A DNA stretch of 64,000 bases from Sphingomonas sp. Leaf67. Its GTDB lineage: Bacteria > Pseudomonadota > Alphaproteobacteria > Sphingomonadales > Sphingomonadaceae. The notes beneath the pieces were generated by a model that saw nothing but the letters and a program-made list of their open reading frames with translations, had not been told where the DNA came from and did no database searches. Positions 2,512 through 18,178 of this stretch are shown in pieces. Positions within the stretch are counted from its first letter, which is position 1; the number at the start of each line of letters is the position of its first letter. The stretch spans positions 496,001-560,000 of the forward strand of contig NZ_LMLP01000001.1 of NCBI RefSeq assembly GCF_001421965.1. The letters are read 5' to 3'. The translations under genes were made by a program, and so were the position numbers.

Positions 2512-2521
2512 CCCCTCCCCT

Positions 2522-3445
2522 TCATGCGTGATCGATCCGGCGATAGGCTGCGACCAGCGCATCCTCCCCCGGCCGACCCTTGATCGAATTGCCATGTTCC
2601 ATGCCGATCACGCCGGCATAGCGCTTGTTCCGCAGCCATTTGACGACGGTGGCATAGTTGATTTCGCCGGTACCCGGCTCGTTGCGGCCGGGATTGTCGC
2701 CGAACTGGATATAACCGATCTCGTCCCAGCAGCTGTCGAGCGTCGGGATCAGATTCCCCGACTGGATCTGTTCGTGATACAGATCGGCAAGGACCTTGAC
2801 CCCCGGACTGTTCGCACCGCGCGCGACGGCATAGCCCTGCGCTACGGTCTGCATATAGACGCCGGGATGGTTGGTCCGCGTATTCAGCGGTTCCATGACC
2901 ACGGCGATGTCGTGCGGCGCGACGATATCGCCCGCGCGGCGCATCACGTCGATGACCCGTGCCGTCTGGATGTCCTGCGGCACCTTCGGGTCCATGAACC
3001 CGGTCACCACCGTCATCCGCGTCGCCGACAGCCGCTTGGCGACCTCGATCGACGCGCGGATGTCGTTCAGGAACGCTTCGCGCTCGGCACCGTCGTTCGC
3101 CCCCAGCAGGGGCCGCGACTGCGCCCATTTCGGCATGCTGGCGACGAACACGCCCATCGTCATGCCGCGCTGTTGCAGCGCCTTCGCCATCGCCGTCTGT
3201 TCGGCGATACTGCGCCCGGCCGCCTCATTATCTTCCCACGCCATGAAGCCCTGATCGGCGGCATAGGCGATCTGTTCGATCCGGTCGCCACGGCTGGCGA
3301 AGCTGCCTTCGTGCGGCGCGAATTTCAGCGAGAAGCGAGCAGCGTTGCTGCCACCGCCTTCGCGGCGTTGCGACGCACGTACGCCGGTGGCCAGCGTCGC
3401 GGCGGCGGCCCCTGCGATGACCGTGCGCCGCGACACGCCGCTCAC
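2522..3445 (-). CDS. Tat-exported TIM-barrel isomerase (hydroxypyruvate isomerase-like)
   Basis: A 307-residue protein starting at a GTG that overlaps the cytochrome c stop (GTGA). The longer in-frame reading upstream is only a shadow of the cytochrome gene. The N-terminus is a twin-arginine leader (SRRTVIAGAAAATLATG). The body is a xylose-isomerase-like TIM barrel with a KFAPHEGSF first strand, VVMEPLNTRTNHPG, VLADLYHEQIQSGN and IGMEHGNSIKG, giving the Glu/Asp/His set typical of divalent-metal isomerases. Hydroxypyruvate isomerase-type proteins are the closest recognisable group, but those are usually cytosolic, so an exported member acting on oxidised sugars is more likely here. It is the second exported TIM barrel of the operon. 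Confidence 0.85.
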   Translation of the reverse strand: MSGVSRRTVIAGAAAATLATGVRASQRREGGGSNAARFSLKFAPHEGSFASRGDRIEQIAYAADQGFMAWEDNEAAGRSIAEQTAMAKALQQRGMTMGVFVASMPKWAQSRPLLGANDGAEREAFLNDIRASIEVAKRLSATRMTVVTGFMDPKVPQDIQTARVIDVMRRAGDIVAPHDIAVVMEPLNTRTNHPGVYMQTVAQGYAVARGANSPGVKVLADLYHEQIQSGNLIPTLDSCWDEIGYIQFGDNPGRNEPGTGEINYATVVKWLRNKRYAGVIGMEHGNSIKGRPGEDALVAAYRRIDHA

Positions 3446-3819
3446 TTGGCCGACGTCAGATAGGCGATGATGGCGGCACGCTTCGCCGGATCGGGCGTCG
3501 AGATCGGCATCCGCGTACCCGGCACCTTCTTGGCCGGTGCCGTCAGATACGCGTCGAGCGTCTTGGCGTCCCAGCGCAGCTTCGACGCCTTCATCGCCGG
3601 CGAATAGTTGAAGCCCGGCACCGACGCCGCAGGCCGCCCGACCACGCCGAACAGATTGGGGCCGATGCCATTGCGGCCACCCTTGTTGACCGTGTGGCAC
3701 GCCTTGCAGGCGTTGAACGCGGGCGGTGCCGCGGTCTGGGCGGTGGTTGGCGTCGCCGTGGCGAGCAGCGCGGTCGCACCGGCCGCACCCACGATTGCCA
3801 TACCCGTCAGCAGTTTCAT
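3442..3819 (-). CDS. periplasmic cytochrome c (class I, c2/c552-like)
   Basis: A 125-residue protein with a signal peptide (hydrophobic stretch to about residue 27) and one covalent haem site, C38-K-A-C-H42, followed by NGIGPNLFGVVGRPA and a TRMPIS segment whose Met can be the distal ligand. The start is the ATG at 3819; the reading frame open upstream is the antisense of the Gfo/Idh gene. Lying among a GMC oxidoreductase gene and its subunit-3 gene, it is the probable electron acceptor that passes electrons from the sugar dehydrogenase to the respiratory chain. In related complexes the cytochrome subunit often has three haems. This single-haem version would be a soluble carrier. Confidence 0.9.
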   Translation of the reverse strand: MKLLTGMAIVGAAGATALLATATPTTAQTAAPPAFNACKACHTVNKGGRNGIGPNLFGVVGRPAASVPGFNYSPAMKASKLRWDAKTLDAYLTAPAKKVPGTRMPISTPDPAKRAAIIAYLTSAK

Positions 3820-3821
3820 CT

Positions 3822-4964
3822 TTACTCTCCCGCTTCCACTGGGGTCCATTTTCGGTCGGAGCTCGCATTCGCGATCACCGCCTCGATAAAATTCATCGTC
3901 CGCAGACCATCGGTCAGGCCGGGGACGAAGCGTTCGTCCTGCCCGCGAATCGCCGCCGCAAACCCTTGATACAGATTGGCAAAGGCTTCGATATAGCCCT
4001 CGGGATGGCCCGAAGGCGTACGCAGCATTGCCTGGGTCGATCCGGCCAGCCCCGGCCCGCCCGCCCGCACCACTTCGGCCGGCCGGTCGAGCCAGCGCAG
4101 CGTCAGCGTGTTCGGCTCCATCTGCGCCCATTCGAGCGTGCCGAGCTCGCCCGACACACGCAGTTTCAGGCCATTCTCCTCACCCGCCGCGACCTGACTG
4201 GCCTTCAGCGTACCGCGTGCGCCGCCATCGAAGCGCAGCAGCGCGCTGACATCGTCGTCGAGCCGCCGCCCGGCGACATGCGCGGTCAGGTCGGCCGACA
4301 CCTCGCTCACCCGCACGCCCGAGACGTGCTCGGCAAGGTGAAAGGCATGGGTGCCGATATCGCCCAGACAGCCGCCCAGCCCGGCCTTCGCCGGATCGGT
4401 GCGCCATTCTGCTTGTTTGTTGCCTTGGCCATCGATCGGGGAACTTAGCCACCCTTGCAGATACTCGACCTGAACGAGCCGGATTTTTCCCAGATCGCCG
4501 CGCGCGACGCGGGTGCGCGCCTCTTCGACCAGCGGGTAACCGCTGTACGTGAAGGCCAGCGCGAATTTCGCCCCGCTCTTGCGCGCCGCGGCGGCGATGG
4601 CGCGGGCTTCGTCGCTGCTCATCGCCATCGGTTTTTCGCAGAAGACGTTGATGCCCGCTTCCAGTGCGGCGATCGCCATCGGCGCATGCAGGTGGTTCGG
4701 CGTGACGATCGCCAGCGCGTCGATCCGCTCGCCCTCCGGGAGCGCGCGTTCGGCGGCGATCAGCGCATTCAGATCGCCATGGACGCGCTGCGGATCGAGC
4801 CCGAGCGACACGCCGCTACGTTCGTTGCGCGCGGCGTCGCTGCTGAACGCGCCGGCCACCAACTGCCAGTCGCCGTCCAGCGCCGCCGCCTTGCGGTGGA
4901 TTGCGCCGATGAACGCGCCCTCGCCACCGCCGGCCATGCCCAGCTTCAACGCCTTGCCGCTCAT
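3822..4964 (-). CDS. Gfo/Idh/MocA family NAD(P)-dependent oxidoreductase
   Basis: A 380-residue protein with an N-terminal Rossmann fold (LGMAGGGEGAFIGAIHR), the family signature CEKPMAMSSDEA around residues 104-115 with the conserved EKP, and a C-terminal beta-sheet domain containing GCLGDIGTHAFHLAEHVSG, where the His and Asp complete the usual active site. No signal peptide is present, so it acts in the cytoplasm on NAD(P)-linked sugar or inositol oxidation. The ATG at 4964 overlaps the upstream isomerase stop (ATGA). In the proposed pathway it would interconvert a 3-keto sugar and its reduced form, as 3-keto-glucose reductases of this family do. That role is inferred from the neighbours. 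Confidence 0.88.
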   Translation of the reverse strand: MSGKALKLGMAGGGEGAFIGAIHRKAAALDGDWQLVAGAFSSDAARNERSGVSLGLDPQRVHGDLNALIAAERALPEGERIDALAIVTPNHLHAPMAIAALEAGINVFCEKPMAMSSDEARAIAAAARKSGAKFALAFTYSGYPLVEEARTRVARGDLGKIRLVQVEYLQGWLSSPIDGQGNKQAEWRTDPAKAGLGGCLGDIGTHAFHLAEHVSGVRVSEVSADLTAHVAGRRLDDDVSALLRFDGGARGTLKASQVAAGEENGLKLRVSGELGTLEWAQMEPNTLTLRWLDRPAEVVRAGGPGLAGSTQAMLRTPSGHPEGYIEAFANLYQGFAAAIRGQDERFVPGLTDGLRTMNFIEAVIANASSDRKWTPVEAGE

Positions 4965-6019
4965 TCCGCCGACAATCCCATCAGCTTGCGGATCGCCGCG
5001 CGGTCGACGCCGCTCCTGGCGAAGTCGTCGAAGGCGTGATCGGTCAGCTTGATCATATGCGCCTCGATGAACGGAGCACCTTCGCTGGCACCGTCGTCGG
5101 AATTCTTGAGCGCGCACTCCCATTCGAGCACCGCCCAGCCGTCATAGCCATATTGTGCCATGCGGCTGAACACGCCCGAAAAATCGACCTGCCCATCCCC
5201 CAGCGAGCGGAACCGCCCCGGGCGATCGACCCAATCCTGATAGCCGCCATAGACGCCCGAGCGTCCGGTCGGGTTATATTCGGCATCCTTGACGTGAAAG
5301 CACGAAATCCGGTCGTGATAGCGATCGATGAAGTCGAGATAGTCGAGCTGTTGCAGCACGTAATGCGACGGATCGAACAGCAGCCGCGCGGCATTGTGCC
5401 CCTTCACCGCCTCGAGGAAACGTTCCCATGTCGCCCCGTCGTGCAGGTCTTCGCCGGCATGGACCTCGAACGCGCAATGCACGCCATTGTCCTCGAACAC
5501 GTCGAGTATCGGGGTCCAGCGCCGCGCCAGTTCGGCAAATGCTTCCTCGACCAGCCCGGCGGGCCGCTGCGGCCACGGATAGACATAGGGCCATGCCAGC
5601 GCACCGGAGAAGGTCGCATGCGCCTTCAGCCCGAGGTTCGCGCTGGCCTTCGCCGCCATCTTGACCTGCTCGACCGCCCAGACCTGCCGCTCTGCGGGCT
5701 TGCCATGCACTTCGGGCGGTGCGAAGCCGTCGAACAGCGTGTCATAGGCGGGGTGGACCGCGACCAGCTGCCCCTGCAAATGGGTCGACAGCTCGGTCAC
5801 TTCGATACCGTGCTGCGCCAGCTTGCCGCGCAGATCGTCGCAATAGTCCTTGCTCTCCGACGCGGTCTTCAGGTCGATCAGCCGCGTGTCGCACGGGATC
5901 TGCACGCCGACATAGCCCAAGCCCGCGGCCCATTCGGCCATGTTCTCCAGCGTGTCGAACGGTGCCTTGTCGCCCATGAACTGCGCGAGGAAAATGCCCG
6001 GCCCCTTCATTCCCGTCAT
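4961..6019 (-). CDS. cytosolic sugar phosphate isomerase/epimerase (TIM barrel)
   Basis: A 352-residue TIM-barrel protein with no export signal. Features are a GPGIFLAQFMGD first strand, CAFEVHAGEDLHDG, LLFDPSHYVLQQLDY, SCFHVKDAEYNPTG and GWAVLEWECALKN, matching the Glu-Asp-His-Glu metal site of the xylose isomerase-like family. It is longer than the two exported barrels by an insertion around YNPTGRSGVYGGYQDW. The ATG at 6019 has an AAGGAG site 8 nt upstream and overlaps the permease stop. Its coupling to a permease and a Gfo/Idh/MocA enzyme matches many inositol and keto-sugar catabolic clusters, where the isomerase and dehydrogenase act in sequence. The substrate is not known. Confidence 0.87.
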   Translation of the reverse strand: MTGMKGPGIFLAQFMGDKAPFDTLENMAEWAAGLGYVGVQIPCDTRLIDLKTASESKDYCDDLRGKLAQHGIEVTELSTHLQGQLVAVHPAYDTLFDGFAPPEVHGKPAERQVWAVEQVKMAAKASANLGLKAHATFSGALAWPYVYPWPQRPAGLVEEAFAELARRWTPILDVFEDNGVHCAFEVHAGEDLHDGATWERFLEAVKGHNAARLLFDPSHYVLQQLDYLDFIDRYHDRISCFHVKDAEYNPTGRSGVYGGYQDWVDRPGRFRSLGDGQVDFSGVFSRMAQYGYDGWAVLEWECALKNSDDGASEGAPFIEAHMIKLTDHAFDDFARSGVDRAAIRKLMGLSAE

Positions 6020-7266
6020 GCCAGCGTCTCCTTGCGACGATCGTCGCGGAACGTGAATTGGAACAGCAGCGCGATCGCTGCGGCGGCGACCGCCGGATAG
6101 ATCCACATGCCCTGCCAGTCGGCGATGGTCGGCGTGGCCGGCAACTGCGCATAGATCATCGCGCCGATCTGCGAGCCGAGCAGCATCCCGACGCCATAGG
6201 TGAACAGCGTCAGCATGCCCTGCGCCTGCGCATTGACGCCCTTCGGCGTGGCGATGGTGCCGACATAGATCGCCCCGGCGACGAAGAAGAAGTCGTAGCA
6301 CACGCCGTGCAGCGCGACACCGAGATAGATCGCCCACAGCCCCGACCCGCCGTCACCGATCGCGAACAGCGCATAGCGCAGCGCCCACGCGGCCATGCCG
6401 ACCAGCAGCAGCGGCTTCACGCCGAAGCGGCGATAGAGCCAAGGCATCGAGAACATGAAGACCAGTTCGGACATCTGCCCGATCGCCAGCGTCCCGCTGA
6501 CATTCTCGATCCCCGCCGCGCCGACATAGGGCGAGGCATAGGCGTAATACATCGCCAGCGGCACCGAGATCAGCGTCGCACAGAGGATGAAGATCAGGAA
6601 CGACTTCTGCCGCATCAGCCCGAATGCCTCGACGCAGAAGACCTGCGCCAGCACGCTGCCGCCCTGCGGCTTGTCGGCCTCGACCGCCGGCAGGGTGAAG
6701 CTGTAGACGCCCAGCGCGATCGACACGACCGCCGCGACCCAGAAGATCTTCGGGCTGGCGGACAGTCCCGCCCAGCCGATGATGAGGCCGGCGGCGATCC
6801 AGCCGATCGTGCCGAACGCGCGGACGAACGGGAAATTGTCGGTCCGATCGCCGAAGCTCTTGAGCGCGATCGTGTTCGCAAGGCCGACGGTCGGCATATA
6901 CAGGATCATGTAGCCGAGCAGCAGCCACACGAACGTCCCGCCCTTTTCCGGGGTCAGCAGCGTCGGCAGCAGGTACAGCAGCACGCCGCCGACCAGATGC
7001 AGGATGACCATCAACATGCGCGGCGCGACATAGCGCACCGCGACCATGCCGAGCAGCAGCGACCCGACGATCGACGCGATCGGCCCCATCGAAAACGCGT
7101 TGCCGATCAGATTGCCGATTCCGACCGTCTGCATCACCAGGCCGAGCGTGACCTGCCACGCTCCCCAGATGAAGAACTGCATGAACATCAACGCGCTTAG
7201 CCGCGCGGTCAGACTTCCGTCGACCGATCGATCGGTCACGGGCCCGACACCCTCCGCTATGGCCAT
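6016..7266 (-). CDS. MFS permease, nucleoside:H+ symporter-like
   Basis: A 416-residue inner-membrane protein with about 12 hydrophobic helices. The first helix contains MFMQFFIWGAWQVTLG, the hallmark opening of the nucleoside:proton symporter group (NupG/XapB) of the major facilitator superfamily. It is the first gene of the minus-strand operon, so the promoter should lie in 7267-7426. In sugar-catabolic operons of this kind the NHS-type permease is often annotated for nucleosides, but its context here (dehydrogenase, isomerases, keto-sugar hydrolase) suggests import of a sugar, keto-sugar or polyol released in the periplasm. Family assignment is good; the substrate is inferred. Confidence 0.87.
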   Translation of the reverse strand: MAIAEGVGPVTDRSVDGSLTARLSALMFMQFFIWGAWQVTLGLVMQTVGIGNLIGNAFSMGPIASIVGSLLLGMVAVRYVAPRMLMVILHLVGGVLLYLLPTLLTPEKGGTFVWLLLGYMILYMPTVGLANTIALKSFGDRTDNFPFVRAFGTIGWIAAGLIIGWAGLSASPKIFWVAAVVSIALGVYSFTLPAVEADKPQGGSVLAQVFCVEAFGLMRQKSFLIFILCATLISVPLAMYYAYASPYVGAAGIENVSGTLAIGQMSELVFMFSMPWLYRRFGVKPLLLVGMAAWALRYALFAIGDGGSGLWAIYLGVALHGVCYDFFFVAGAIYVGTIATPKGVNAQAQGMLTLFTYGVGMLLGSQIGAMIYAQLPATPTIADWQGMWIYPAVAAAAIALLFQFTFRDDRRKETLA

Positions 7267-7426: not shown

Positions 7427-8443
7427 ATGACGCGCAGTTTTCAGCCGATCCGTGAATGGCACGACGTCGATCGACTTTGGTTCGAGACGGAGATCGTGCC
7501 GCTGCGCCAGCCCGCGGTCCTTCGCGGCATCGCCGCGTCGTGGCCGGCGGTTCGGGCCGCCCGGCAGTCGGACGAAGCGTTGCGCGACTATATCGAGGCG
7601 ACCGATCTCGGCAAACCGGTCCCCGCCTTTCTGGGGCCGCCACAGATCAACGGCAGATTCTGGTACAGCAACGACCTGCGCGGGCTGAACTATCAGCAGC
7701 GGATCGCCCCGATCGGCGAATTGCTGCGCGCGCTGATGAGCGTGCGGGACGAGGAACAGCCGCCGGCCTTCTATGCAGGCGCGGTGCCGATCGCCGAAAA
7801 CTGCCCCGATTTCGCCCGCGACAATGTGCTGGGCATTACCGGTCCGGGCGCGGTCGCGCGGCTATGGGTCGGCAACCGCGTCACCGTGTCGACCCATTTC
7901 GACATGTCGGAAAACGTCGCGGTGGTGGTCGGCGGACGGCGGCGCTTCACGCTGTTCCCGCCCGAACAAGTCCGCAACCTGTATGTCGGGCCGTTCGACT
8001 TCACCTTTGCCGGGCCGCCGGTCAGCATGGTCGACCTGCGCAATCCCGACCTCGAACGCTATCCGCGCTATGCCGAGGCGCTGGAAACCGCACTGGAGGC
8101 CGAACTCGAACCCGGCGATGCGATCTACATCCCCTATATGTGGTGGCATCAGGTCGAGGGACTGTCGCCGATCAACGTCCTCACCAACTATTGGTGGGCC
8201 CTGACACCGCGCGATTGGCAGGGGTCTCCCTTCCGCACGCTGATGCACGCGGTGATGAGCATCCGCGACCTGCCCGAGCGCGAGCGCGACATATGGCGGA
8301 CGTGGTTCGACCATTATGTCTTCGGTGCGGGCCATGACGCGGTCACCCACCTTCCGGCCGCCGGTCGCGGCGCGCTGGGCGAGATGACGCCCGACAGGGC
8401 GCAGCAGGTGAAGCATTACCTGATCGACGATTTGCGCCGTTAG
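7427..8443 (+). CDS. JmjC-like cupin (cupin_8) protein, probable Fe(II)/2-oxoglutarate oxygenase
   Basis: A 338-residue protein with the cupin_8/JmjC fold. The facial triad is visible as H157-F-D159 (VSTHFDMSENV) and H241 (YMWWHQVEGL), with a GGRRRFTLFPPEQ strand between them that is typical of factor-inhibiting-HIF-like hydroxylases. The ATG at 7427 is the first suitable start, although no strong ribosome site precedes it. The stop overlaps the convergent halogenase stop by 4 nt. Cupin_8 genes often sit beside TonB-receptor/tryptophan-halogenase loci in Caulobacter, Xanthomonas and Sphingomonas relatives. A hydroxylase acting on the same unknown substrate as the halogenases is a reasonable inference. 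Confidence 0.85.
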   Translation: MTRSFQPIREWHDVDRLWFETEIVPLRQPAVLRGIAASWPAVRAARQSDEALRDYIEATDLGKPVPAFLGPPQINGRFWYSNDLRGLNYQQRIAPIGELLRALMSVRDEEQPPAFYAGAVPIAENCPDFARDNVLGITGPGAVARLWVGNRVTVSTHFDMSENVAVVVGGRRRFTLFPPEQVRNLYVGPFDFTFAGPPVSMVDLRNPDLERYPRYAEALETALEAELEPGDAIYIPYMWWHQVEGLSPINVLTNYWWALTPRDWQGSPFRTLMHAVMSIRDLPERERDIWRTWFDHYVFGAGHDAVTHLPAAGRGALGEMTPDRAQQVKHYLIDDLRR

Positions 8444-9951
8444 GACGGGCTGCGGCAGAAGCGGTCGATGAACGCCATATGGTCGGGCATCGCCCGCACC
8501 CCCGCGTCCATCGCCCCGGCGATATGGGTCATGCGGCGATCGAGCTCCTCCGCCGACAAGATGTCGGCGATCGGGTGATGCCGCTTGGGGTGGACATTCT
8601 GCCCGTGCAGCACCGCCAGCCAGCTCGTCTCGCTGAACAGTTCGTTGTCGTGCCGGTACAGCCGCGCATTTTCGCGGAAGATGGCGATGCGTTCTTCCAG
8701 CGAAGCGGGGATCGCCATATCACGGCAGCGACGCCAGAGTGGGCTGTCGTTGCGGGCCGTCGCCTTGTAATGCAGTATCAAGAAGTCGCGGACCTGTTCA
8801 TACTCCAACCGCGTGCGCCGATTGTAATAATCGATATCCGGCTGATTGAACGACCGATCGGGGAAGTTGGTCAGCAGCCGCGCAATCCCGGTCTGGATCA
8901 GATGAATCGACGTCGATTCGAGCGGTTCGAGAAACCCCGCCGCCAGCCCGAGCGCGACGACATTCCGATCCCACGCCTTGCGTCGCACCCCCGCCGTGAA
9001 GCGCAGGAAGTTCGGGTCCGACAGCGGTGCCCCGTCGAGACCGTCGTTCAGCATCGCCAACGCCGTGTCGTCGTCGACATAGTCGGAACAATAGACATGG
9101 CCATTGCCGGTGCGTGACTGGAGCGGGATGCGCCAGCGCCAGCCGACGCTGGTCGCAGTCGCGCGGGTATATGGCGTCGGATCGCCGACGCGGGCGCAGG
9201 GCCGCGCCACCGCCCGGTCGCACGGCAGCCATTCGCGCCAGTCGTCATAGCCCGCGTTCAACGCGCCTTCGATCAACAGCCCGCGAAAGCCCGAGCAGTC
9301 GATGAACATGTCACCCGCGACGCTGCTGCCATCGTCGAGCACGACATGATCGACATGGCCGTTCGCACCGTTCAGCGTGACGTCGACGATCCGCCCCTCG
9401 GTCCGCACCACGCCCGCCGCTTCGGCACGTTCGCGCAAATATTTGGCGTAGAGCGCGGCATCGAACTGAAACGCGTAGCTGATGCCGGCCAGCGGCGATC
9501 CGCGGCGCGACGGATCGGGCCGCATGAACTTGCCCGCCCGCGCCGCACCGACGCCGATGCTGAAGCGATCGAGCGGCAATGTGCCCCCCGCCTGGGCATG
9601 GCGATACCAGAAATGGTGGAAATGGATGCCCTCCATCTCCTGCCCATAGGTGCCGAAGGGGTGGATATAGCGCTCGCCGATCTGCCCCCAATCGACGAAT
9701 TCGATGCCCAGCTTGAACGTCGCGCAGGTCCGGCGGACGAATTCATCCTCGTCGATGCCGAGCAGGCGATTGAAATACTGGATGTGCGGGATCGTCGCCT
9801 CGCCGACGCCGACCGTGCCGATCGCTTCGGATTCGACGACGCGGATCGCCATGCCGCTGCCGGCCAGCATATGCGACAGCGCCGCCGCCGCCATCCATCC
9901 CGCCGTGCCGCCGCCGACGATCACGATGCCGCGGATGTTCGCCTCGCTCAT
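8440..9951 (-). CDS. flavin-dependent tryptophan halogenase family protein (copy 1)
   Basis: A 503-residue protein with all landmarks of the PF04820 flavin-dependent halogenases: the FAD motif IVGGGTAGWM at residues 11-20, VGVGEATIP at 47-55, the catalytic lysine K80 (in ATFKLGIEF, equivalent to PrnA K79), the family motif W271-R-W273-R-I-P, and E345-S346 within GFLEPLESTSIHL, matching PrnA E346/S347. It should use FADH2, O2 and halide to halogenate an electron-rich ring. It is last in the four-gene operon, overlapping the upstream copy by ATGA. No flavin reductase gene is seen in the window. Relatives beside TonB receptors, such as BrvH, act as indole brominases in vitro; the natural substrate here is unknown. 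Confidence 0.92.
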   Translation of the reverse strand: MSEANIRGIVIVGGGTAGWMAAAALSHMLAGSGMAIRVVESEAIGTVGVGEATIPHIQYFNRLLGIDEDEFVRRTCATFKLGIEFVDWGQIGERYIHPFGTYGQEMEGIHFHHFWYRHAQAGGTLPLDRFSIGVGAARAGKFMRPDPSRRGSPLAGISYAFQFDAALYAKYLRERAEAAGVVRTEGRIVDVTLNGANGHVDHVVLDDGSSVAGDMFIDCSGFRGLLIEGALNAGYDDWREWLPCDRAVARPCARVGDPTPYTRATATSVGWRWRIPLQSRTGNGHVYCSDYVDDDTALAMLNDGLDGAPLSDPNFLRFTAGVRRKAWDRNVVALGLAAGFLEPLESTSIHLIQTGIARLLTNFPDRSFNQPDIDYYNRRTRLEYEQVRDFLILHYKATARNDSPLWRRCRDMAIPASLEERIAIFRENARLYRHDNELFSETSWLAVLHGQNVHPKRHHPIADILSAEELDRRMTHIAGAMDAGVRAMPDHMAFIDRFCRSPS

Positions 9952-11462
9952 GCCGCCATCGCCGGTGCCGGGCAGTAGCGGGCGAGGAAGTCGCCATGCG
10001 TCGGCATCCGCGCCACCGCCGCCGCCATCGCGTCTCGCATCGATGCGAGACTGCGCGCGACATCGCGTTCGGGCAGCGTCGCGACGATCGGATCGGACGA
10101 CGTCGGCACGATCCCCTGCCCCAGCATCACGGCGACCCAGCTCGGCCGGGTGAACAGCTCGTCATTGTAACGGAACACGCGTCCGGTTTCGCGGAACAGT
10201 TCGATCTTGTGAAGCAGCGTATCGGGCAGTCGCATGGTGCGGCAATGGTTCCAGAACGGCGTATCGTCGCGCGTGGTCGCTGCATAATGCAGGATGATGA
10301 AGTCGCGTACCTGTTCGAACTCGGTGCGCATATGGCGGTTATATTCGGTGCGCAGGATTTCCGGAATGTCGCCGCGCGGGAACAGCGAGATGAACCGGCT
10401 GATCCCCTCCTGAATCAGATAGATCGACGTCGATTCGAGCGGTTCGAGAAACCCCGCCGCCAGCCCGATCGCGATGCAGTTGCCCGACCAGAAGGTCTCG
10501 CGACATCCCGCCCTGAACCGAATGCGACGCGGATCGGCAAGCGCGGGCGCATCGAGACCGGCCAGCAGCGTCGCGCTCGCCGCTTCCTCGGTCGTGAAGG
10601 CGCTGGCAAAGATATGACCGTTGCCGACCCGTCGCTGCGTCGGGATGCGCCATTGCCAGCCGGCATCGCGCGCGGTCGCGCGGGTATAGGGGGTCGGCGG
10701 CCCGGCATGTTCGCTCGGCACCGCCAGCGCGGTATCGCACGGCAGCCAGTGGCTCCAGTCGACGAACCCGCTGCCCAGCGCCTCGCCCGCGAGCAGCGCC
10801 CGGAACCCGGTGCAGTCGAAGAAGAAATCGCCCGCGACCACGCGTCCGTCGGCGAGGGTCAGGCGGGTGATCGCGCCATCCGCCCCCTGCCCGACCGCAC
10901 CGACGATCCCCTCGATACGAACGACCCCGCGCTTCTCGGCATAGCGGCGCAGGAACCGCGCATAGAGCGTCGCGTCGAAATGATAGGCATAGCGGATCTG
11001 CGACAGCACCGATCGGGGGTTCGGGTCGGGCAGCGCGAACCTGCCAGCCCGTGCCGCTACCGCGCACAGGCTGTATTCCTCGATCGGTTGCGGCGCGCCA
11101 TGCTCGCGGGCGCGCAGCCAATATTGGTGGAAGTCGATCCCCTGCATGTCGACGCCATGCTGGCCGAAGGGATGGACATAGCGATCGCCCCTGGTACCCC
11201 AGTCGACGAATTCGATGCCCAGTTTGAACGTCGCCTGCGTTGCGGCCATGAACTCGGCCTCGTCGACGCCCAGCATCTGGTTGAAGGCGAGGATGTCGGG
11301 GATCGTCGCCTCGCCCACCCCGACCGTGCCGATCGCGTCGGATTCGACCAGCGTGATCGCGACGTCCTTCGGATCGAGCAGGCTCGACAGCGCGGCGGCG
11401 GTCATCCACCCCGCCGATCCGCCGCCGACGATCACGATCCGGCGCAACAGCGGCGCGCTCAT
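9948..11462 (-). CDS. flavin-dependent tryptophan halogenase family protein (copy 2)
   Basis: A 504-residue paralogue of its neighbours. It keeps the FAD-binding IVGGGSAGWM, the VGVGEATIP loop, the catalytic lysine at residue 80 (ATFKLGIEFVDWG), the halogenase signature GWQWRIPTQ and the active-site GFLEPLESTSIYL. It differs from copies 1 and 4 in variable loops, for example the run around WLRAREHGAPQPIEEYS, which would lie near the substrate cavity. This suggests a different substrate or regiochemistry within the same pathway. It overlaps the genes on both sides by 4 nt, so all copies are probably made from one mRNA starting before 14419. Catalytic competence is expected from the motifs but not proven. 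Confidence 0.92.
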   Translation of the reverse strand: MSAPLLRRIVIVGGGSAGWMTAAALSSLLDPKDVAITLVESDAIGTVGVGEATIPDILAFNQMLGVDEAEFMAATQATFKLGIEFVDWGTRGDRYVHPFGQHGVDMQGIDFHQYWLRAREHGAPQPIEEYSLCAVAARAGRFALPDPNPRSVLSQIRYAYHFDATLYARFLRRYAEKRGVVRIEGIVGAVGQGADGAITRLTLADGRVVAGDFFFDCTGFRALLAGEALGSGFVDWSHWLPCDTALAVPSEHAGPPTPYTRATARDAGWQWRIPTQRRVGNGHIFASAFTTEEAASATLLAGLDAPALADPRRIRFRAGCRETFWSGNCIAIGLAAGFLEPLESTSIYLIQEGISRFISLFPRGDIPEILRTEYNRHMRTEFEQVRDFIILHYAATTRDDTPFWNHCRTMRLPDTLLHKIELFRETGRVFRYNDELFTRPSWVAVMLGQGIVPTSSDPIVATLPERDVARSLASMRDAMAAAVARMPTHGDFLARYCPAPAMAA

Positions 11463-12892
11463 ACCATTCCCCGCTTCAGATATTGTTCGAGTTGCGCGCG
11501 ATAGATGCGCGCGGGCGGCAGCTTCGCCACCGCCTGTTCGATGTCGCGCTCCATGGTCGACAGATATTGCCGCACGCGACCCGGATCGGCACGATCGGCC
11601 AGCCGGTCGTGCCGCCGGGGCCGCGATCCCAGCCCGAGATGCAGGATCGTCCAGTCCTCCGGGTGAAAGGGTTCGAGGTCATAGGCAACCAGCACCCCGC
11701 GATCGGCGAACATCGTCAGCTTGCGCGCCAGCTTCTCCGGCACCGGTTCCGCCGTCGCCGCCTGCCAATAGGGGCCGTCGGGCAGTCCTTCAGCGGTGAA
11801 GAACGCCCGCTGGAACAGGTCGGCGTGGTCGTGATCGTCGGCGAACCGGCGATCATATTCGCGAGCTTCTACACCCATGTCAGCCCGCGTCGGGATCAGC
11901 GTCAGCAGCCGTTCGATATCGCGTTCCAGCAGCAGCATCGGTGCCGGCGTCAGCGGTTCCACCACCGCCGCCGCCTGTCCGATGCCGACGCAATTGCCGA
12001 CCCAGCCGTGCGACCGTCGACCGATCGTCGCCGCGACGTCACCGGTACCCGCCGCCGACACCCGCATCCGCCGGACGCGCCCTTTCAACGGGGTCTCGCT
12101 CTGCCAGCCATCGGGCGTCGCCCGCACCGTCCGCAGCGGCGTTTCGTCGGTGCCGGCATCGTCCTCGACCGCCAGCGCGATCCGTCGCGTCCCCTGCCAG
12201 TCCGGCGCAAGTGCCGACAGCAATACCGCCGGCGGGCCGCTGCCATCGACATACAGGTCGGCAGTCAGCAGCCGGCCATCATCCAGCAGCACGCCCGCGA
12301 TCGCACCGTCCGCAACCTCGACACCGACGACCGTACCGCCGACCCGCTCGACCCGCCCCGCCGGCACCGCCGCGACGAACAGCGCGGCATAGTCGACCGG
12401 GTCGAATTGATAGCCATATTCGGCGCGCGCCAGCGGGTGCTGGCCGTCGCCCTCGCGCGGCGGATGCACGAATACGCCGCGCCGCGCCGCCTGTATCCCG
12501 GCGACATAGGGCGTGATCGCGTCCGTTCCGACCAACGCCAGATACTGATGCAGCTGAATCCCGTCGATCACCGGAAACGGCAGCGCAAATCCCTGCATCC
12601 AGCCGCGCCCGCCCCAATCGGCATAGCGCGTCCCCCAGGAAAAGCTCGTATCGCTCGTCACGATCAGTCGCCGCTCATCGACCCCGGCCGACAGGTTGAA
12701 GGCATAGGCCGATGGCGCGGTCACGCTGCCATAGAACAGGTCGCTCCCCCGCTGGTCGCCTGCATCGACGCGCACGATCGCGACCTGCGGCGGCAATTGC
12801 ATCGCCAGCGCCGCCACGGTCATCTCGGCGGCCAGCCCGCTGCCGCACACCATTATGCGTCCGACCGCTGCAGAGGTTTCCAACGCCTGCAT
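11459..12892 (-). CDS. degenerate tryptophan-halogenase homologue (probable pseudo-enzyme)
   Basis: A 477-residue member of the same fold, recognisable from the aligned DWGGRGWMQGFALPF, YGYQFDPVDYAALF, LYVDGSG and GNCVGIGQAAAVVEPL segments, but with its active site eroded. The FAD glycine motif reads GSGLAA instead of GGGTAG, VGVGEATIP is replaced by YGSVTAPSA, the catalytic lysine is S85 (TSFSWG), the WxWxIP motif is WQSETP, and the catalytic E-S pair is T315-P316. The reading frame is intact, with no stop or frameshift, and it sits inside the operon (6 nt after copy 4, ATGA overlap with copy 2). Retention of an open frame suggests a selected role, perhaps as a structural or regulatory partner of the active copies. 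Confidence 0.85.
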   Translation of the reverse strand: MQALETSAAVGRIMVCGSGLAAEMTVAALAMQLPPQVAIVRVDAGDQRGSDLFYGSVTAPSAYAFNLSAGVDERRLIVTSDTSFSWGTRYADWGGRGWMQGFALPFPVIDGIQLHQYLALVGTDAITPYVAGIQAARRGVFVHPPREGDGQHPLARAEYGYQFDPVDYAALFVAAVPAGRVERVGGTVVGVEVADGAIAGVLLDDGRLLTADLYVDGSGPPAVLLSALAPDWQGTRRIALAVEDDAGTDETPLRTVRATPDGWQSETPLKGRVRRMRVSAAGTGDVAATIGRRSHGWVGNCVGIGQAAAVVEPLTPAPMLLLERDIERLLTLIPTRADMGVEAREYDRRFADDHDHADLFQRAFFTAEGLPDGPYWQAATAEPVPEKLARKLTMFADRGVLVAYDLEPFHPEDWTILHLGLGSRPRRHDRLADRADPGRVRQYLSTMERDIEQAVAKLPPARIYRAQLEQYLKRGMV

Positions 12893-12898
12893 CGTGCG

Positions 12899-14419
12899 TC
12901 AGGCCGCCAGACCGGCCGCGGCCGGCGATCGGCGGATATAGTCGGCATGATCGGGCGTGGCCTGCACCGCCTGCGCCACCGCACGCCGCAGCGCCGCCGC
13001 CCGCGCCGCGATCGTCGCATCGCCCTGCGCCAGCACGCGCGGATCATATCCCTTTGGCATCAGCCTCTGCCCCAGCATCACCGCCACCCAGCTGGGCGGC
13101 AGGAACAATCCGAACTGATAGGGTACGACATAGCCGCGCGTCAGCCACGCATCGATCTTCGCCTGCAAGCTGTCGGGCAGGGTCAACGCGCGGAAATGCC
13201 GCCACATCTCGCTGTCCTCGCGCTCGGTCGCGACATAGTGGAGCAACAGGAAGTCGCGCACCCGTTCGAAATGCAGCGCCATCCGCCGGTTATATTCGGC
13301 GATATCGCCCGCATCGAAGCGGCGTGTCGGGAACAGCGCCAGCAATTCGGTGATGCCATCCTGGATCAGATGGATCGACGTCGATTCAAGCGGTTCGAGG
13401 AACCCGCTGGCCAGCCCGATCGCGACGACGTTGCGCTTCCAGAAATCGCGCCGTCGCCCCGTCGTAAAGCGCAGCCGTCGCGGCTCGGCCTGCATCGGCG
13501 CGTCGAGATTGGCGATCAGCTGGTCCTGTGCGTCGTCTTCGGAAATGAAGCTGCTGCAATAGACATGACCGTTGCCGACCCGGTGCTGCAACGGAATCCG
13601 CCACTGCCACCCCGCCGTTCGCGCCGTCGCGCGGGTATAGGGGCCGAGCGGCGAGCAACTGTCGGTCGGTACCGCGACCGCCCGGTTGCACGGCAGCCAG
13701 TTGCTCCAGTCGTCATAGCCCGACTGGAGCGCCCCTTCGATCAGCAGCCCGCGAAACCCCGAACAGTCGACGAACAGATCGGCTTCCAGCACCCGCCCAT
13801 CGGCCAGCGTCACGTTGCGGACGTGACCACTCTCGCCGTGCAGCGCGACGTCGACCACCTTGCCCTCGATCCGCTCGACGCCGCGTGTCTCGGCATAGCG
13901 GCGCAGGAAGCGGGCATAGAGCGAGGCGTCGAACTGATAGGCATAGCCGAAGCTCGATTCGACCTGCCGTACGTCGCTGCCCGGATGGCGGAAGCGGTTG
14001 TGTTCGGCGGCGATCACCGGGAACGAATATTCGTCCAACCGGGTCGCATCGCCCAGTTCGCGCAGTCGCAGCCATTGATGGTAGAACGGGATACTGTCGT
14101 CGGTCGGTCCGTAATTGCCGAACGGATGGATGTAGCGGTCGCCGATTCGACCCCAGTCGCAAAACTCGATGCCCAGCTTGTACGTCGCCTCGGTCGCCCG
14201 CATCAGGTCCGCTTCCGCGATACCGAGCGTCGTATTGAACGCCCGGATGTGCGGCAGCGTCGCTTCGCCGACGCCGACCGTTCCGATTTCGTCCGATTCG
14301 ATCAACTGTACCCGTACGCCCAGCCCCTGCAGCCTGTTCGCAAGCGCAGCGGCGGTCATCCACCCGGCGGTACCGCCACCGACGATACAGACCCGTTCGA
14401 TCTCCTCCCGTCCGCTCAC
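12899..14419 (-). CDS. flavin-dependent tryptophan halogenase family protein (copy 4, first in operon)
   Basis: A 506-residue protein with intact motifs: CIVGGGTAGWM at 11-21, VGVGEATLP, catalytic lysine K81 (ATYKLGIEFCDWG), GWQWRIPLQHRVGNGHVY and GFLEPLESTSIHLIQ. It starts with GTG at 14419; no in-frame ATG lies in the conserved N-terminus and no strong ribosome site is visible, so translation may be modest. It heads the four-gene operon and is divergent from the TonB-dependent receptor across 14420-14776. Overall it resembles copy 1 most closely. As with the other copies, the sequence shows a halogenase chemistry but does not reveal the substrate or which halide is used. Confidence 0.92.
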   Translation of the reverse strand: MSGREEIERVCIVGGGTAGWMTAAALANRLQGLGVRVQLIESDEIGTVGVGEATLPHIRAFNTTLGIAEADLMRATEATYKLGIEFCDWGRIGDRYIHPFGNYGPTDDSIPFYHQWLRLRELGDATRLDEYSFPVIAAEHNRFRHPGSDVRQVESSFGYAYQFDASLYARFLRRYAETRGVERIEGKVVDVALHGESGHVRNVTLADGRVLEADLFVDCSGFRGLLIEGALQSGYDDWSNWLPCNRAVAVPTDSCSPLGPYTRATARTAGWQWRIPLQHRVGNGHVYCSSFISEDDAQDQLIANLDAPMQAEPRRLRFTTGRRRDFWKRNVVAIGLASGFLEPLESTSIHLIQDGITELLALFPTRRFDAGDIAEYNRRMALHFERVRDFLLLHYVATEREDSEMWRHFRALTLPDSLQAKIDAWLTRGYVVPYQFGLFLPPSWVAVMLGQRLMPKGYDPRVLAQGDATIAARAAALRRAVAQAVQATPDHADYIRRSPAAAGLAA

Positions 14420-14776
14420 GCTGCGCCTGACCTGGTTTCCCCGAAATCCGCCATTCTACCGTCCTCTTCAACAGTCACGACACGCCGCACAAGATTTCGC
14501 ACAGTTACCACTGTATTTCGCTGCGATGCAGCACGCATTGTATACGTAATGTTATTCTTATCGACAAAGAAAGCGTCGCTGGCGGACAATTGTCAACGAT
14601 GTCGGCTAAATATGTTACCGCTATCTTGCCGGGGTAAATCGAATCCTTTATGCGTCCGATCGTTGCCCCACCATTGCCAGCCGCGTCGTATCAAGAAACG
14701 ACAACGAGCAGCAAGGATTGGGCACAGGGGACACCAGGCGGCGCGCAAAGACGCCGCACAGGGAGGGGATTGATTG
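14420..14776. promoter_or_regulatory. divergent promoter region between halogenase operon and TonB receptor
   Basis: This 357-nt region is richer in A/T than its flanks and has no coding sequence I can support. It contains a perfect 10-bp palindrome, GACAATTGTC, at 14585-14594. The palindrome overlaps a possible -35 (TTGTCA, 14590-14595) with TATGTT 15 nt further on as a weak -10 for the receptor. ATTGTATACGTAAT at 14537-14550 contains the GTATAC palindrome, a core seen in GntR-type operators. A GGGAGGGG ribosome site ends the region before the receptor ATG. The operator assignments are guesses from symmetry alone. Confidence 0.45.
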
Positions 14777-17700
14777 ATGAAGATGCAGGTACTCGCGTAT
14801 CCGTCGCGCTCGGCTAAACGGTTGCTGATGGCCACCTCGGCGCTGACATTGGCGCTGACACCGGCGGCTGGCTTCGCCCAGACGGCGATCACGCCGCCCG
14901 AAGAGAAGGTTCCCTCGCCGCTGGCAAATGCGCAGGATGCGACGCCCGAGGGTGAAATCGTTGTTACCGGCATCCGCGCCGCGCTCGAATCAGCCAAGGA
15001 AATCAAGCGCCGCTCATCGACCTTCGTCGATTCGATCACCGCATCGGACATTGCGACGCTGCCCGACCTTTCGGTCGCCGAAGCGATCGGTCGTATTCCG
15101 GGCGTGACCATCTCGCGGTTCCCGACCAATGGCGGCAGCCCCGACTTTCCATCCCCCGAAGGCCGCGGCAACCTTGTGCGCGGCCTCGGCTTCGTGCGTT
15201 CGGAATTCAATGGTCGGGACGCCTTCTCCGCCAATGGCGGTCGCTCGCTCGACTTCTCCAGCATTCCGCCCGAGCTGGTCGGCGGCGTCGACGTCTACAA
15301 GAACCAGAGCGCCGACCTGATCGAAGGCGGCATCGGCGGCACGATCAACCTGCGCACGCTAGAACCCTTTGACAGCAAGAAGGACCTGTTCGTCGTCGCG
15401 TTCGACGGCACGTTTTCCGACCTTCGCGAAAAATGGTCGCCGCAGGGGAGCATCACCGCGGGCAAGCGCTGGAAAACCGGCATCGGTGAAATCGGCATCC
15501 TCGGTTCCTATTCGCGCTCGCGGCTCGATTCGCGGATCAACGGCTGGCAGCAGAGCCCGCCGATCCCGCGCGTCCTCGACGCCAACGGCAACGTCCCCGA
15601 AACCGGCAACTTTAACGACGACAACCGGACCAACGAATTCATCGGTGCCGATCCGTCGCGCATCGTCGGCATCACGCCCGGCTTCCAGCTGCGCAACACC
15701 GACTTCGATCGCGACCGCATCAGCTATTACGGCGCAGTGCAGTGGCGCAACGACAGCCTCCAGGCGACGTTCAAGTATATTCGCGTCGAAACCAAGATCA
15801 ACAGCACCGAACGGACGCTGGAATGGTTCCCCGACCATAATGGCGGCGTCCAGATCGGCGTCCAGAACATGCAGCTGAACAAGAACTGGGGTTCCAGCGG
15901 GCTGCCCATGTGCAGCGGCCCCGGCGGTCGTCCGGTCGCCCCCGGCGATTGCGAAACCCTGTATCCGGTACAGGGCGGCCTGATGGAATCGGGCCTCGTC
16001 ACCAGCAACAACGATTCATGGACCGGTGCGCGCGGCCGCGACATCGGCATGCTCGGCGTCGGCAAGCAGGAAGAAGCGACCACCGAAGACTTCAGCCTGA
16101 ACCTGAAATGGACCGCGAGCGAGCGGCTGTTCGTGACCGTGGACGGTCAATATACGAAGGCCGACGCCCGGCAACGGCAGATCTGGGGTGGCATGAACAG
16201 CTACTTCAACTATTCGGTGAAGCCGGACCTCGATCACCCGCGCGTCGAATTCTTCATCGATCCCACGCACCGCTTCAATCCCGGCAATACGCGCTTTTCT
16301 GGCGACCGTGATCCGGTGACCACAAACGGCGTCATCACCACGCCGGGCGTGTTCATTCCGACGCCGACCAGTTCAAGCGACTTTAACGGTGCCAATTTCC
16401 AGTTCGCCGCCGACCAGTTCCAGAACGGCGAAGGCGACCTGTACTCGCTGCGTGGCGACCTGAGCTACGACGTGTCGGGCGCGGACGGCCTTGCCGGCTG
16501 GTTCGACAGCGTGAAGTTCGGTGCCCGTTTCGCCGAACGCAGCCAGGTCAATTCGGAAATGGCGCTGAACTGGGGTGCGATCGCGCCGGCATGGGCCGGC
16601 GGCTATGGCATCGCCGGCACGTTCCAGAACCCGAACAAGGGTTTTGAAGCGGTCAGCTTCAAGGACTTCTTCCGTGGCGACGGCGTCATACAGGGCAGCA
16701 ACACCGACTTCGTCTTCGTGAACCAGAATATCCTCAACGACTATTCCGCGTTTCGCAAATATATCGCCAGCGAACCACAGCTGGCGACACTGGGTAGCTG
16801 GGTCCCGCGCGGCATCGATAACGGCACGCGCTTCGGCCAGGGCGTCTATCGTCCGGAGGATACGTCGGACATCACGGAGCGGACGAAGAACGCCTATGTC
16901 CGCGTCGACTTCAAACATGATTTCGACGGCGGCATGTCGATCGACGGCAATATCGGCGTGCGGTACGTTCGTACCGAACTGCAATCGTCAGGCTTCCAGG
17001 CCTTCCGGCCGTTCAATCCCGATCTGCCGTCCTGCAGCCTTACCGGCGGTCCGGGGCAGCAGAATTGCCAATACACGTTCGACCCGGACACCGGTAAGCG
17101 GCTGCGCACCGACGACGCCGAAAGCCGCGACGACATTCGCGACTTCGCGCCGCAGGCAGTTGCCTATGCAGAGCAGGCCGCGATCCCGACCACGCTCAAC
17201 CTCGTCGACGAACGGTGGCTGCCGTCGTTCAACATGAAGTTCAACCTCAACCGCGAGATGCTGTTCCGCTTCGGCTACAGCAAGGGGCTGAGCCGACCGA
17301 ACGTGCAGGATCTGCGCGCGTCGCAGGAATATGTGGTCACCACCACCACCACCCGGTACGACCAGATCACCGACCGGAACGACCCGCTATTCGGCGTGGA
17401 TCGCGGTGCGCAGGACGTCTCGGCCAGCGAAATCCGCGTCAGCCGCGGCAACCCGTTCCTGAAGCCGACGACCGCCGACAGCTTCGACCTTTCGTACGAA
17501 TGGTATTTCAAGGGCGGCTATCTGTCGGTCGCGGGCTTCTACAAGAGCCTGTCGAACATCATCACCAACGGCGACCTGTCGCTGGGAACGACGACCCTCG
17601 ACGGCAAGACCCTGAACATCGTCTACAACGGCGCGGTCAATCAGGCGAAAGCCAAGGTGAAGGGCGTCGAGGTCGGGTATCAGCAGTTCTTCGACTTCCT

Positions 17701-18178
17701 GCCGGGGCCGTTGAAGCATCTCGGCGTACAGGCGAACTACACCTTCATCGATGCGACCACGACACCGCCGGGCAACGGTGCCGACGCCAATGGCGACGGG
17801 GTGCCGGACGATGTGACGCAGGTGTTCCGCTGGGGCGTCAGCGACCTGCTCGGCCAGTCCAAGCACATCGCCAACGCGGTCGCGATCTATCAGGACAAGG
17901 TGGTCGAGGCGCGTCTCGCCTATAACTGGCGCTCGTCGTATCTGCTGACGTATCGCGACTATGTGACGGGCAACCCGATCTACGCGGAGGACGCCGGCTT
18001 CCTCGACGCGTCGCTGAAGTTCAATATCGGCAACCTTCAGATCCGCGGATCGATCGCCAATATCCTCGACACGAAGAGCAAGGCATATGGCATCATCGAC
18101 ACCGATGGCCAGAGGTACGACCGGTTCAGCTTCCTGAACGATCGCCGTATCGTGGTGGGCGCCCTGTTCCGCATCTGA
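14777..18178 (+). CDS. TonB-dependent receptor (Xanthomonas/Caulobacter type)
   Basis: A 1133-residue outer-membrane receptor. A signal peptide ends near AAGFAQ, then EIVVTGIRAALESAKEIKRR leads into the plug domain with LPDLSVAEAIGRIPGVTISR. The 22-stranded barrel follows and ends in the aromatic RIVVGALFRI, as outer-membrane proteins do. The length and the plug wording match the TonB-Xanth-Caul subfamily, whose members import glycans, peptides and other non-siderophore ligands. The ATG at 14777 lies 8 nt after GGAGGGG; a TTG one codon earlier is less likely. Divergent orientation with four halogenase-like genes suggests that the imported compound, or something derived from it, is halogenated. 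The ligand cannot be predicted. Confidence 0.93.
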   Translation: MKMQVLAYPSRSAKRLLMATSALTLALTPAAGFAQTAITPPEEKVPSPLANAQDATPEGEIVVTGIRAALESAKEIKRRSSTFVDSITASDIATLPDLSVAEAIGRIPGVTISRFPTNGGSPDFPSPEGRGNLVRGLGFVRSEFNGRDAFSANGGRSLDFSSIPPELVGGVDVYKNQSADLIEGGIGGTINLRTLEPFDSKKDLFVVAFDGTFSDLREKWSPQGSITAGKRWKTGIGEIGILGSYSRSRLDSRINGWQQSPPIPRVLDANGNVPETGNFNDDNRTNEFIGADPSRIVGITPGFQLRNTDFDRDRISYYGAVQWRNDSLQATFKYIRVETKINSTERTLEWFPDHNGGVQIGVQNMQLNKNWGSSGLPMCSGPGGRPVAPGDCETLYPVQGGLMESGLVTSNNDSWTGARGRDIGMLGVGKQEEATTEDFSLNLKWTASERLFVTVDGQYTKADARQRQIWGGMNSYFNYSVKPDLDHPRVEFFIDPTHRFNPGNTRFSGDRDPVTTNGVITTPGVFIPTPTSSSDFNGANFQFAADQFQNGEGDLYSLRGDLSYDVSGADGLAGWFDSVKFGARFAERSQVNSEMALNWGAIAPAWAGGYGIAGTFQNPNKGFEAVSFKDFFRGDGVIQGSNTDFVFVNQNILNDYSAFRKYIASEPQLATLGSWVPRGIDNGTRFGQGVYRPEDTSDITERTKNAYVRVDFKHDFDGGMSIDGNIGVRYVRTELQSSGFQAFRPFNPDLPSCSLTGGPGQQNCQYTFDPDTGKRLRTDDAESRDDIRDFAPQAVAYAEQAAIPTTLNLVDERWLPSFNMKFNLNREMLFRFGYSKGLSRPNVQDLRASQEYVVTTTTTRYDQITDRNDPLFGVDRGAQDVSASEIRVSRGNPFLKPTTADSFDLSYEWYFKGGYLSVAGFYKSLSNIITNGDLSLGTTTLDGKTLNIVYNGAVNQAKAKVKGVEVGYQQFFDFLPGPLKHLGVQANYTFIDATTTPPGNGADANGDGVPDDVTQVFRWGVSDLLGQSKHIANAVAIYQDKVVEARLAYNWRSSYLLTYRDYVTGNPIYAEDAGFLDASLKFNIGNLQIRGSIANILDTKSKAYGIIDTDGQRYDRFSFLNDRRIVVGALFRI

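Follow-up and report, generated by a model that had tools for sequence, protein, structure and literature searches.

The window analyzed here is a 64,000-nucleotide stretch of the Sphingomonas sp. Leaf67 genome (contig NZ_LMLP01000001.1, positions 496,001 to 560,000), and it carries a locus in which a TonB-dependent receptor gene stands beside an operon of flavin-dependent halogenase (FDH) genes. An earlier note, made from the sequence alone, had described four tandem PF04820 genes between 8440 and 14419, a convergent JmjC/Cupin_8 gene, and a divergent TonB receptor, and Pfam and NCBIfam profiles confirm all of these assignments. The locus belongs to a widespread association of receptors and halogenases in sugar-uptake loci; what is new is a rule: behind an active halogenase of one particular class stands a long-kept dead paralogue, tied to one receptor subclass. 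The features are listed below, with profile scores to be read against a cut-off of 21 bits for PF04820 and a curated cut-off of 310 bits for TIGR01782.

7427..8443, plus strand: Cupin_8/JmjC oxygenase gene, convergent with the operon; 338 amino acids, ATG start at 7427; Cupin_8 215 bits, JmjC_2.
8440..9951, minus strand: FDH4, fourth halogenase, active-type; 503 amino acids; PF04820 634 bits, motifs intact.
9948..11462, minus strand: FDH3, third halogenase, active-type; 504 amino acids; PF04820 643 bits, motifs intact.
11459..12892, minus strand: pseudo-FDH, second in transcription order; 477 amino acids; PF04820 186 bits, in two stretches.
12899..14419, minus strand: FDH1, first halogenase, active-type; 506 amino acids, GTG start; PF04820 627 bits.
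14420..14776, no strand: divergent intergenic region between receptor and operon; 357 bp.
14777..18178, plus strand: TonB-dependent receptor, divergent from the operon; 1133 amino acids; Plug and TonB_dep_Rec domains; TIGR01782 555 bits.

Read in the direction of transcription, the operon runs FDH1, pseudo-FDH, FDH3, FDH4, with 4-bp overlaps between FDH4 and FDH3 and between FDH3 and pseudo-FDH, a 6-bp spacing between pseudo-FDH and FDH1 (12892 and 12899), and a 4-bp overlap of the stops of the cupin gene and the last halogenase gene. The copies starting at 8440, 9948, and 12899 all contain GxGxxG, the catalytic Lys and Glu, and WxWxIP, motifs from which activity is predicted; in FDH1, these are Lys81, Glu345, and WQWRIP. 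All the halogenases start 12 to 15 residues ahead of the flavin motif, a stretch too short to hold a signal peptide, and we therefore infer a cytoplasmic location for them. The HxD...H iron triad of the cupin protein (H157, D159, H241) is at least 90% conserved across 19 sequences, including that of the window. Its nearest solved chains, the JmjC protein hydroxylases JMJD5 and FIH, have the same triad, whereas the window protein is bacterial and of low similarity to them (65 bits at best).

The second gene of the operon stands apart from the other three by its motifs. It reads SFSWGTR where they have (F/Y)KLGIEF, EPLTPAP where they have EPLESTS, and WQSETP where they have WxWxIP, and the copy at 11459-12892 thus lacks the catalytic Lys, the catalytic Glu, and the WxWxIP motif of an active halogenase. 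Its AlphaFold2 model is of high quality (predicted local distance difference test [pLDDT] 92.4, predicted template modeling score [pTM] 0.92) and aligns with AbeH, Xcc4156, 9luq, and BrvH over about 450 of 477 residues (Z 42.9-43.9), and with 8fov over 452 of 477 residues (2.3 Å, Z 43.9). In this model, the halogenase fold spans the whole length of the protein. PrnA, RebH, PyrH, Thal, and AbeH are tryptophan halogenases of secondary metabolism; the halogenases of the window are like them in fold and motifs, and the dead copy also keeps their fold (Z about 36 to 44), whereas the context differs, being here a receptor and sugar genes. The inactive-looking copy remarked upon in the earlier note has thus indeed lost its catalytic motifs, and it proves to be a member of a conserved, position-fixed family. 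Among 28 dead copies of at least 360 amino acids, with “dead” assigned from the motifs of what are divergent sequences, the Lys is lost in 24 and the Glu in all 28, while WxWxIP is kept in none and GxGxxG in 6. The 144 active copies contain WxWxIP in 139 cases and GxGxxG in 143, and both catalytic residues are retained in 144 of the 179 halogenase sequences overall.

The position of the dead copy was examined by scanning named bacterial genomes with an own-genome alignment and using the best 80 of at least 587 confirmed loci; loci L040 to L119 were picked by their likeness to the first copy, so that arrays are enriched in this sample. Genes were called with a codon-based caller, and receptors, halogenases, cupins, and DUF6445 proteins were located with profiles, all built for this analysis. 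Grouping of same-strand neighbours gave 104 PF04820 groups from the window, the own genome, and the 80 named loci. Writing A for an active and d for a dead copy in transcription order, the 24 arrays of at least three genes that lie away from contig ends comprise 13 AdA, 8 AdAA (window included), 1 AdAdA, and 2 AAA. A dead copy hence occupies the second place in 22 of the 24, it is never found at the first or last position of these arrays, and it never occurs alone. All 63 singles away from contig ends are active, the pairs divide into 4 AA and 4 Ad, and the dead copy comes last in L112, an array at a contig edge. Four halogenases in a row had been thought to exceed what is usual for such loci, and single genes are indeed commoner in the sample; the four-gene operon with a dead second gene recurs, however, in Asticcacaulis, Caulobacter, Sphingomonas, Sphingorhabdus, and one gammaproteobacterium.

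A less biased check was a whole-genome PF04820 search in six array-bearing genomes and the own genome, in which the dead candidates of the six extra genomes were matches below about 380 bits and higher-scoring copies were motif-checked only within fetched loci. All 12 motif-checked dead copies from the low-scoring rows of the seven genomes lie directly 3' of an active-type copy on the same strand, and 11 of them have another active-type copy behind them. Set aside were L144 (369 bits, both residues kept), L140 (a lone halogenase-like gene of another kind), L141 (an unrelated flavoprotein), and, in G258, a frame-broken piece with active-type motifs together with a 21-bit scrap. The G258 piece (L154:1217-1900, contig C28) is what is left of an active-type halogenase gene; the genome is the Sphingomonas genome that also holds L119. 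In Aestuariibacter, an extremely diverged dead copy (L139:3013-4434; 123 bits with the profile built for this analysis) lies directly 3' of a single active copy. Separately, halogenase-like frames at G089:C1:675051-676505 (L031) and G142:C1:541637-543103 contain two and one in-frame TAG stops, respectively, and may be broken genes or sequencing errors.

Phylogenetic trees were used to compare the array positions. In a FastTree tree of 147 sequences (pieces below 360 amino acids excluded, 40 of 65 singles taken), the positions fall into groups of their own, with FDH1 in the “first” group, and all four positions are common to the window, Asticcacaulis L040, and Aestuariibacter L043 (Gammaproteobacteria) as starred clades of 3-4 rows; the orthologues of FDH3 and FDH4 there hold positions 3 and 4. 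In a second tree under a mixture model, from which seven long or odd rows were left out (six of them dead copies), 22 dead copies form one side of a branch with support of 99.8; with a motif-based “dead” call and rows left out of the trees, this does not prove a single origin. Dead copies in the same position occur in both Alpha- and Gammaproteobacteria, and they come after one class of active copy, to which FDH1 belongs. That the dead copy keeps its second place even where the bacteria bearing these related clusters are distant suggests that it is a working partner and not a broken copy.

Several loci suggest that the first and the dead copy behave as one unit: the two-gene Ad loci L045, L046, L057, and L081 retain a copy of the “first” class, Cellvibrio L108 has two A-d pairs, and L119 has a receptor 63% identical to that of the window, positions 3 and 4, and a cupin gene, with neither first nor dead copy. 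In L153:10838-18056 and in L112, two active halogenases and a cupin gene face a separate active-dead pair on the opposite strand, so that the pair need not adjoin the remaining copies. Selection was estimated by the Nei-Gojobori method on pairs with unsaturated synonymous divergence (dS). The ratio of nonsynonymous to synonymous divergence (dN/dS) is 0.36, 0.45, 0.25, and 0.67 in four dead-copy pairs, the first value being that of the window pseudo-FDH and its G091 orthologue, against 0.14 to 0.35 for active copies in the same pairs (excluding L044/L067 position 3, at 0.47, which are not orthologues). Values below 1 indicate that the dead copies are held under purifying selection, less strictly than the active ones.

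The receptors of these arrays form a recognizable subclass. Receptors of dead-copy arrays share a long plug loop (RFAAxxDPDHFSVEGSG) together with NWGxxSxxW, YNWRSxYLL, and several typical Trp and His columns, and the window receptor has the loop in the variant SPDFPSPEG (192.6 bits with the plug signature); plug variants of the SPDFPSPEG or DDFPSPEG type occur in the window, L119, L040, and L043. A search of 190 genomes of the class with the signature gave 11 receptors, from 4 genomes, above a 145-bit limit set by eye, the next score being 131, and all 11 adjoin at least one active-type halogenase (1 to 4 genes); the lowest, L151 (147 bits), lacks most subclass-typical residues, and the count without it is 10 of 10. 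A receptor scoring 115 bits has no halogenase in its 20-kb stretch. A dead copy is found at 6 of the 11, each time directly 3' of an active copy. Receptors are longer in dead-copy arrays (median 1099.5, n = 22, among them one truncated at a contig end) than at single halogenases (931, n = 45; p 2.8e-8, uncorrected for descent), and within the subclass length correlates with halogenase number (rho 0.41, p 0.026, likewise uncorrected). Trp counts are 17.2 in dead-array receptors (n = 23, including the wrongly linked L045 receptor), 11.2 at single halogenases (n = 48, with the L046 receptor duplicated and two subclass-like receptors, L074 and L107), and 10.2 in unlinked receptors (n = 15). The Trp and His columns may bind the ligand or may themselves be modified. 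No solved near relative of the receptor was found by sequence at E 0.001, and the fold matches of its model (pLDDT 72) are siderophore, heme, transferrin, and similar receptors.

The linkage of halogenases and receptors is equally evident across the own genome, which holds 16 PF04820 genes at 10 places (18 rows, two genes with two rows each) and 25 TIGR01782 rows above the cut-off. Of the 10 places, 7 have a TIGR01782 receptor within 1.5 kb, and L001 has one within 2 kb, with SapC and cupin genes intervening; at the other two, a Pfam receptor lies next door (L008) or 2.9 kb away (L007). This proximity is not due to chance: 20,000 random placements at the 1.5-kb limit averaged 0.48 such places and never exceeded 5. 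A second locus on C20 (L005) has the same layout of active, dead, and active copies with a divergent receptor. The earlier note's linkage of receptor, halogenases, and JmjC oxygenase is borne out and recurs widely; its proposal that an imported indole or phenol compound is halogenated is not supported. The halogenase-receptor loci of this genome adjoin genes for alpha-amylases, glycoside hydrolase (GH) family GH2 enzymes, and a sugar transporter, and the neighbours of multi-copy arrays encode GH3 (8), GH43 (5), GH10 (3), GH67 (3), GH5 (3), and GH9 (2) enzymes as well as LacI-type regulators and major facilitator superfamily (MFS) transporters. These are raw counts, without background control, among the 100 of 103 proteins passing length and distance limits at 23 dead-array loci (window, L005, and L112 excluded). 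No aromatic-ring catabolic family appears among the 25 commonest of the 159 neighbour families. Indole import is thus the less likely idea for this locus, while a phenol on a plant glycan may be a halogenation target. The sugars associated with halogenase-receptor loci vary in chemistry and are mostly non-aromatic, so the enzymes probably act on something linked to the receptor and not on the sugar that it imports.

Taken together, the explanation we favor, though tentatively, is a receptor-linked oxidative tailoring operon in a locus of the polysaccharide-uptake type, with an active/pseudo-halogenase heteromer at its core and a target tied to the receptor. The core unit would consist of two genes, the first for an active flavin-dependent halogenase and the second for a pseudo-halogenase with the fold but without the catalytic residues; their products would most likely assemble into a heteromer, with the dead subunit holding or selecting the substrate or supporting the active one. 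The extra active halogenases and the JmjC-type oxygenase would act in the same cytoplasmic pathway, and a reductase encoded at another place in the genome would supply reduced flavin. The earlier note had found no flavin reductase at the locus; the one family checked here, PF01613, has a single match genome-wide, on another contig. As a first choice, the target would be an aromatic side chain, on the receptor polypeptide or on another protein of the uptake route, before export, and as a second choice a phenolic group carried on the glycan. The most specific form of this proposal, in which the active halogenase and its dead paralogue form a heteromeric protein-modifying enzyme that, with the JmjC hydroxylase, alters aromatic or other side chains of the glycan receptor before export, we consider unlikely as it stands; if true, it would constitute a post-translational modification system for a subclass of TonB-dependent receptors.

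Comparison with known systems lends context to this proposal. FDH1 has BrvH of Brevundimonas (6frl, 490 bits) and Xcc4156 (6y1w, 450 bits) among its closest solved relatives, with 9luq of Pseudoalteromonas ranking between them (456 bits); the catalytic motifs are the same, and the alignment with BrvH, the closest solved structure, is nearly gap-free. BrvH is described as having an open active site that does not take free tryptophan and as brominating indole with low activity, and brvH is adjoined by a second halogenase gene (PMC5945002). By contrast with the present locus, the passages on BrvH and Xcc4156 mention no pseudo-halogenase (PMC5945002, PMC7336383), and the word “TonB” is absent from both main texts, as is “receptor” from that of PMC5945002. 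The adjacency of brvH and a TonB receptor, given as known in the earlier note, is accordingly not stated in that main text. The crystals of tryptophan halogenases are all said to show the same dimer (PMC7336383), which, together with the open site of BrvH, makes an active/dead heteromer a natural supposition. Dead paralogues kept as partners of active enzymes are described for the trypanosome prozyme-type pairs of AdoMetDC and deoxyhypusine synthase (PMC5201418, PMC3663545); these differ in fold and chemistry, and the analogous interaction in the halogenase pair is presumed.

Receptor-halogenase neighbourhoods are mentioned in other literature. In the open-licence literature searched, with subscription journals and preprints outside the search, no paper was found that treats pseudo-halogenases or arrays of halogenase genes in sugar loci. 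For this halogenase class, few natural substrates are known, and a fixed active-dead pair tied to one receptor subclass tells which genes to co-express and where to look, since single-gene assays may have lacked a partner; a vague receptor-halogenase association thereby becomes a testable one.

Several observations weigh against this account. Five of the 11 signature receptors stand with one or two halogenases and no dead copy, so that the active-dead pair is not needed everywhere, and L055 and L090 are three-gene arrays without a dead copy. The genome of L119 carries first-plus-dead pairs at L142 and L143 (AdAA and AdA arrays), and the lack of the pair at L119 may therefore be a split and not a loss. 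Dead copies evolve faster than active ones, and the window receptor lacks two His and one Trp typical of the subclass. The idea that receptor Trp residues are one-to-one targets was rejected: across 30 subclass receptors (omitting L137, where the receptor is partial, and the halogenase-free L149), Trp number is uncoupled from halogenase number (rho 0.06, p 0.74), which speaks against one enzyme per receptor Trp.

The strongest rival holds that the receptor imports an aromatic compound or an aromatic-decorated plant oligosaccharide, such as feruloylated arabinoxylan, and that the halogenases and the oxygenase detoxify or modify its phenolic part in the cytoplasm. The GH10, GH43, GH67, and GH3 genes near arrays encode enzymes of xylan and beta-glucan breakdown, window relatives have a GH43 gene (L040) and a gene for an arabinofuranosidase domain protein (L137) nearby, and the longer receptors of dead-copy arrays would suit a larger ligand. 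Against this stand the alpha-amylase and GH2 genes beside halogenase-receptor pairs of the same genome, the lack of aromatic-ring catabolism among the 25 commonest neighbour families, and the scarcity of MFS transporters (5 of 100), and we regard this rival as possible but on the unlikely side. That the enzymes instead produce a small molecule or peptide bearing halogen or hydroxyl groups, a signal or chelator imported by the receptor, is quite unlikely: halogenases are classic tailoring enzymes, and BrvH resembles the peptide halogenase MibH in its open site (PMC5945002), but no conserved small open reading frame (ORF) lies between receptor and operon, and no biosynthetic core is found in the recurrent neighbour clusters or listed families, in agreement with the earlier note. 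A precursor peptide in the 357-bp gap was likewise rejected, its one ORF of at least 20 codons being TTG-started and without a match to four related gaps. Very unlikely is a decaying, hitch-hiking duplicate in an otherwise ordinary run of halogenases that differ in substrate. The dead copies do evolve faster than the active ones and have lost GxGxxG in 22 of 28 cases, but they form one clade whose position is shared between Alpha- and Gammaproteobacteria, and they are full-length, well folded in prediction, and under a dN/dS below 1.

Many relatives have glycan-degrading genes beside the receptor, whereas the window has only a sugar-oxidation cluster, which lies beyond the convergent cupin gene.

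282..7266, minus strand: sugar-oxidation cluster of the 3-keto-glycoside type, neighbouring the halogenase locus.

This cluster comprises a 3-keto-disaccharide hydrolase, Gluconate_2-dh3, cytochrome c, three AP_endonuc_2, Gfo/Idh/MocA, and Nuc_H_symport. Its candidacy as part of the system was rejected, since three query genes (Gfo/Idh/MocA, one AP_endonuc_2, and the symporter) have no relatives in L040, L043, L119, or L137, and it is probably not part of the halogenase-receptor system. A GMC oxidoreductase gene lies near the related array in L137.

Cupin_8 recurs at 11 and DUF6445 at 4 of 28 loci, and the halogenase-receptor loci of the own genome hold both of its Cupin_8 genes, both of its DUF6445 genes, and one of its two SapC genes. 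The two DUF6445 proteins (L002:12464-13177 and L007:9080-9754) and nine relatives conserve HxD...H...R, an iron/2-oxoglutarate pattern that suggests a second iron oxygenase family; with no convincing match to solved structures (best E 0.16), the motif is only suggestive. The second SapC gene (G000:C23:26805-27464, L136) lies outside the halogenase loci examined. Elsewhere in the same genome, a TIGR01782 receptor at G000:C19:225531-228211 is in two pieces, one of which contains two TAG stops, and is probably broken.

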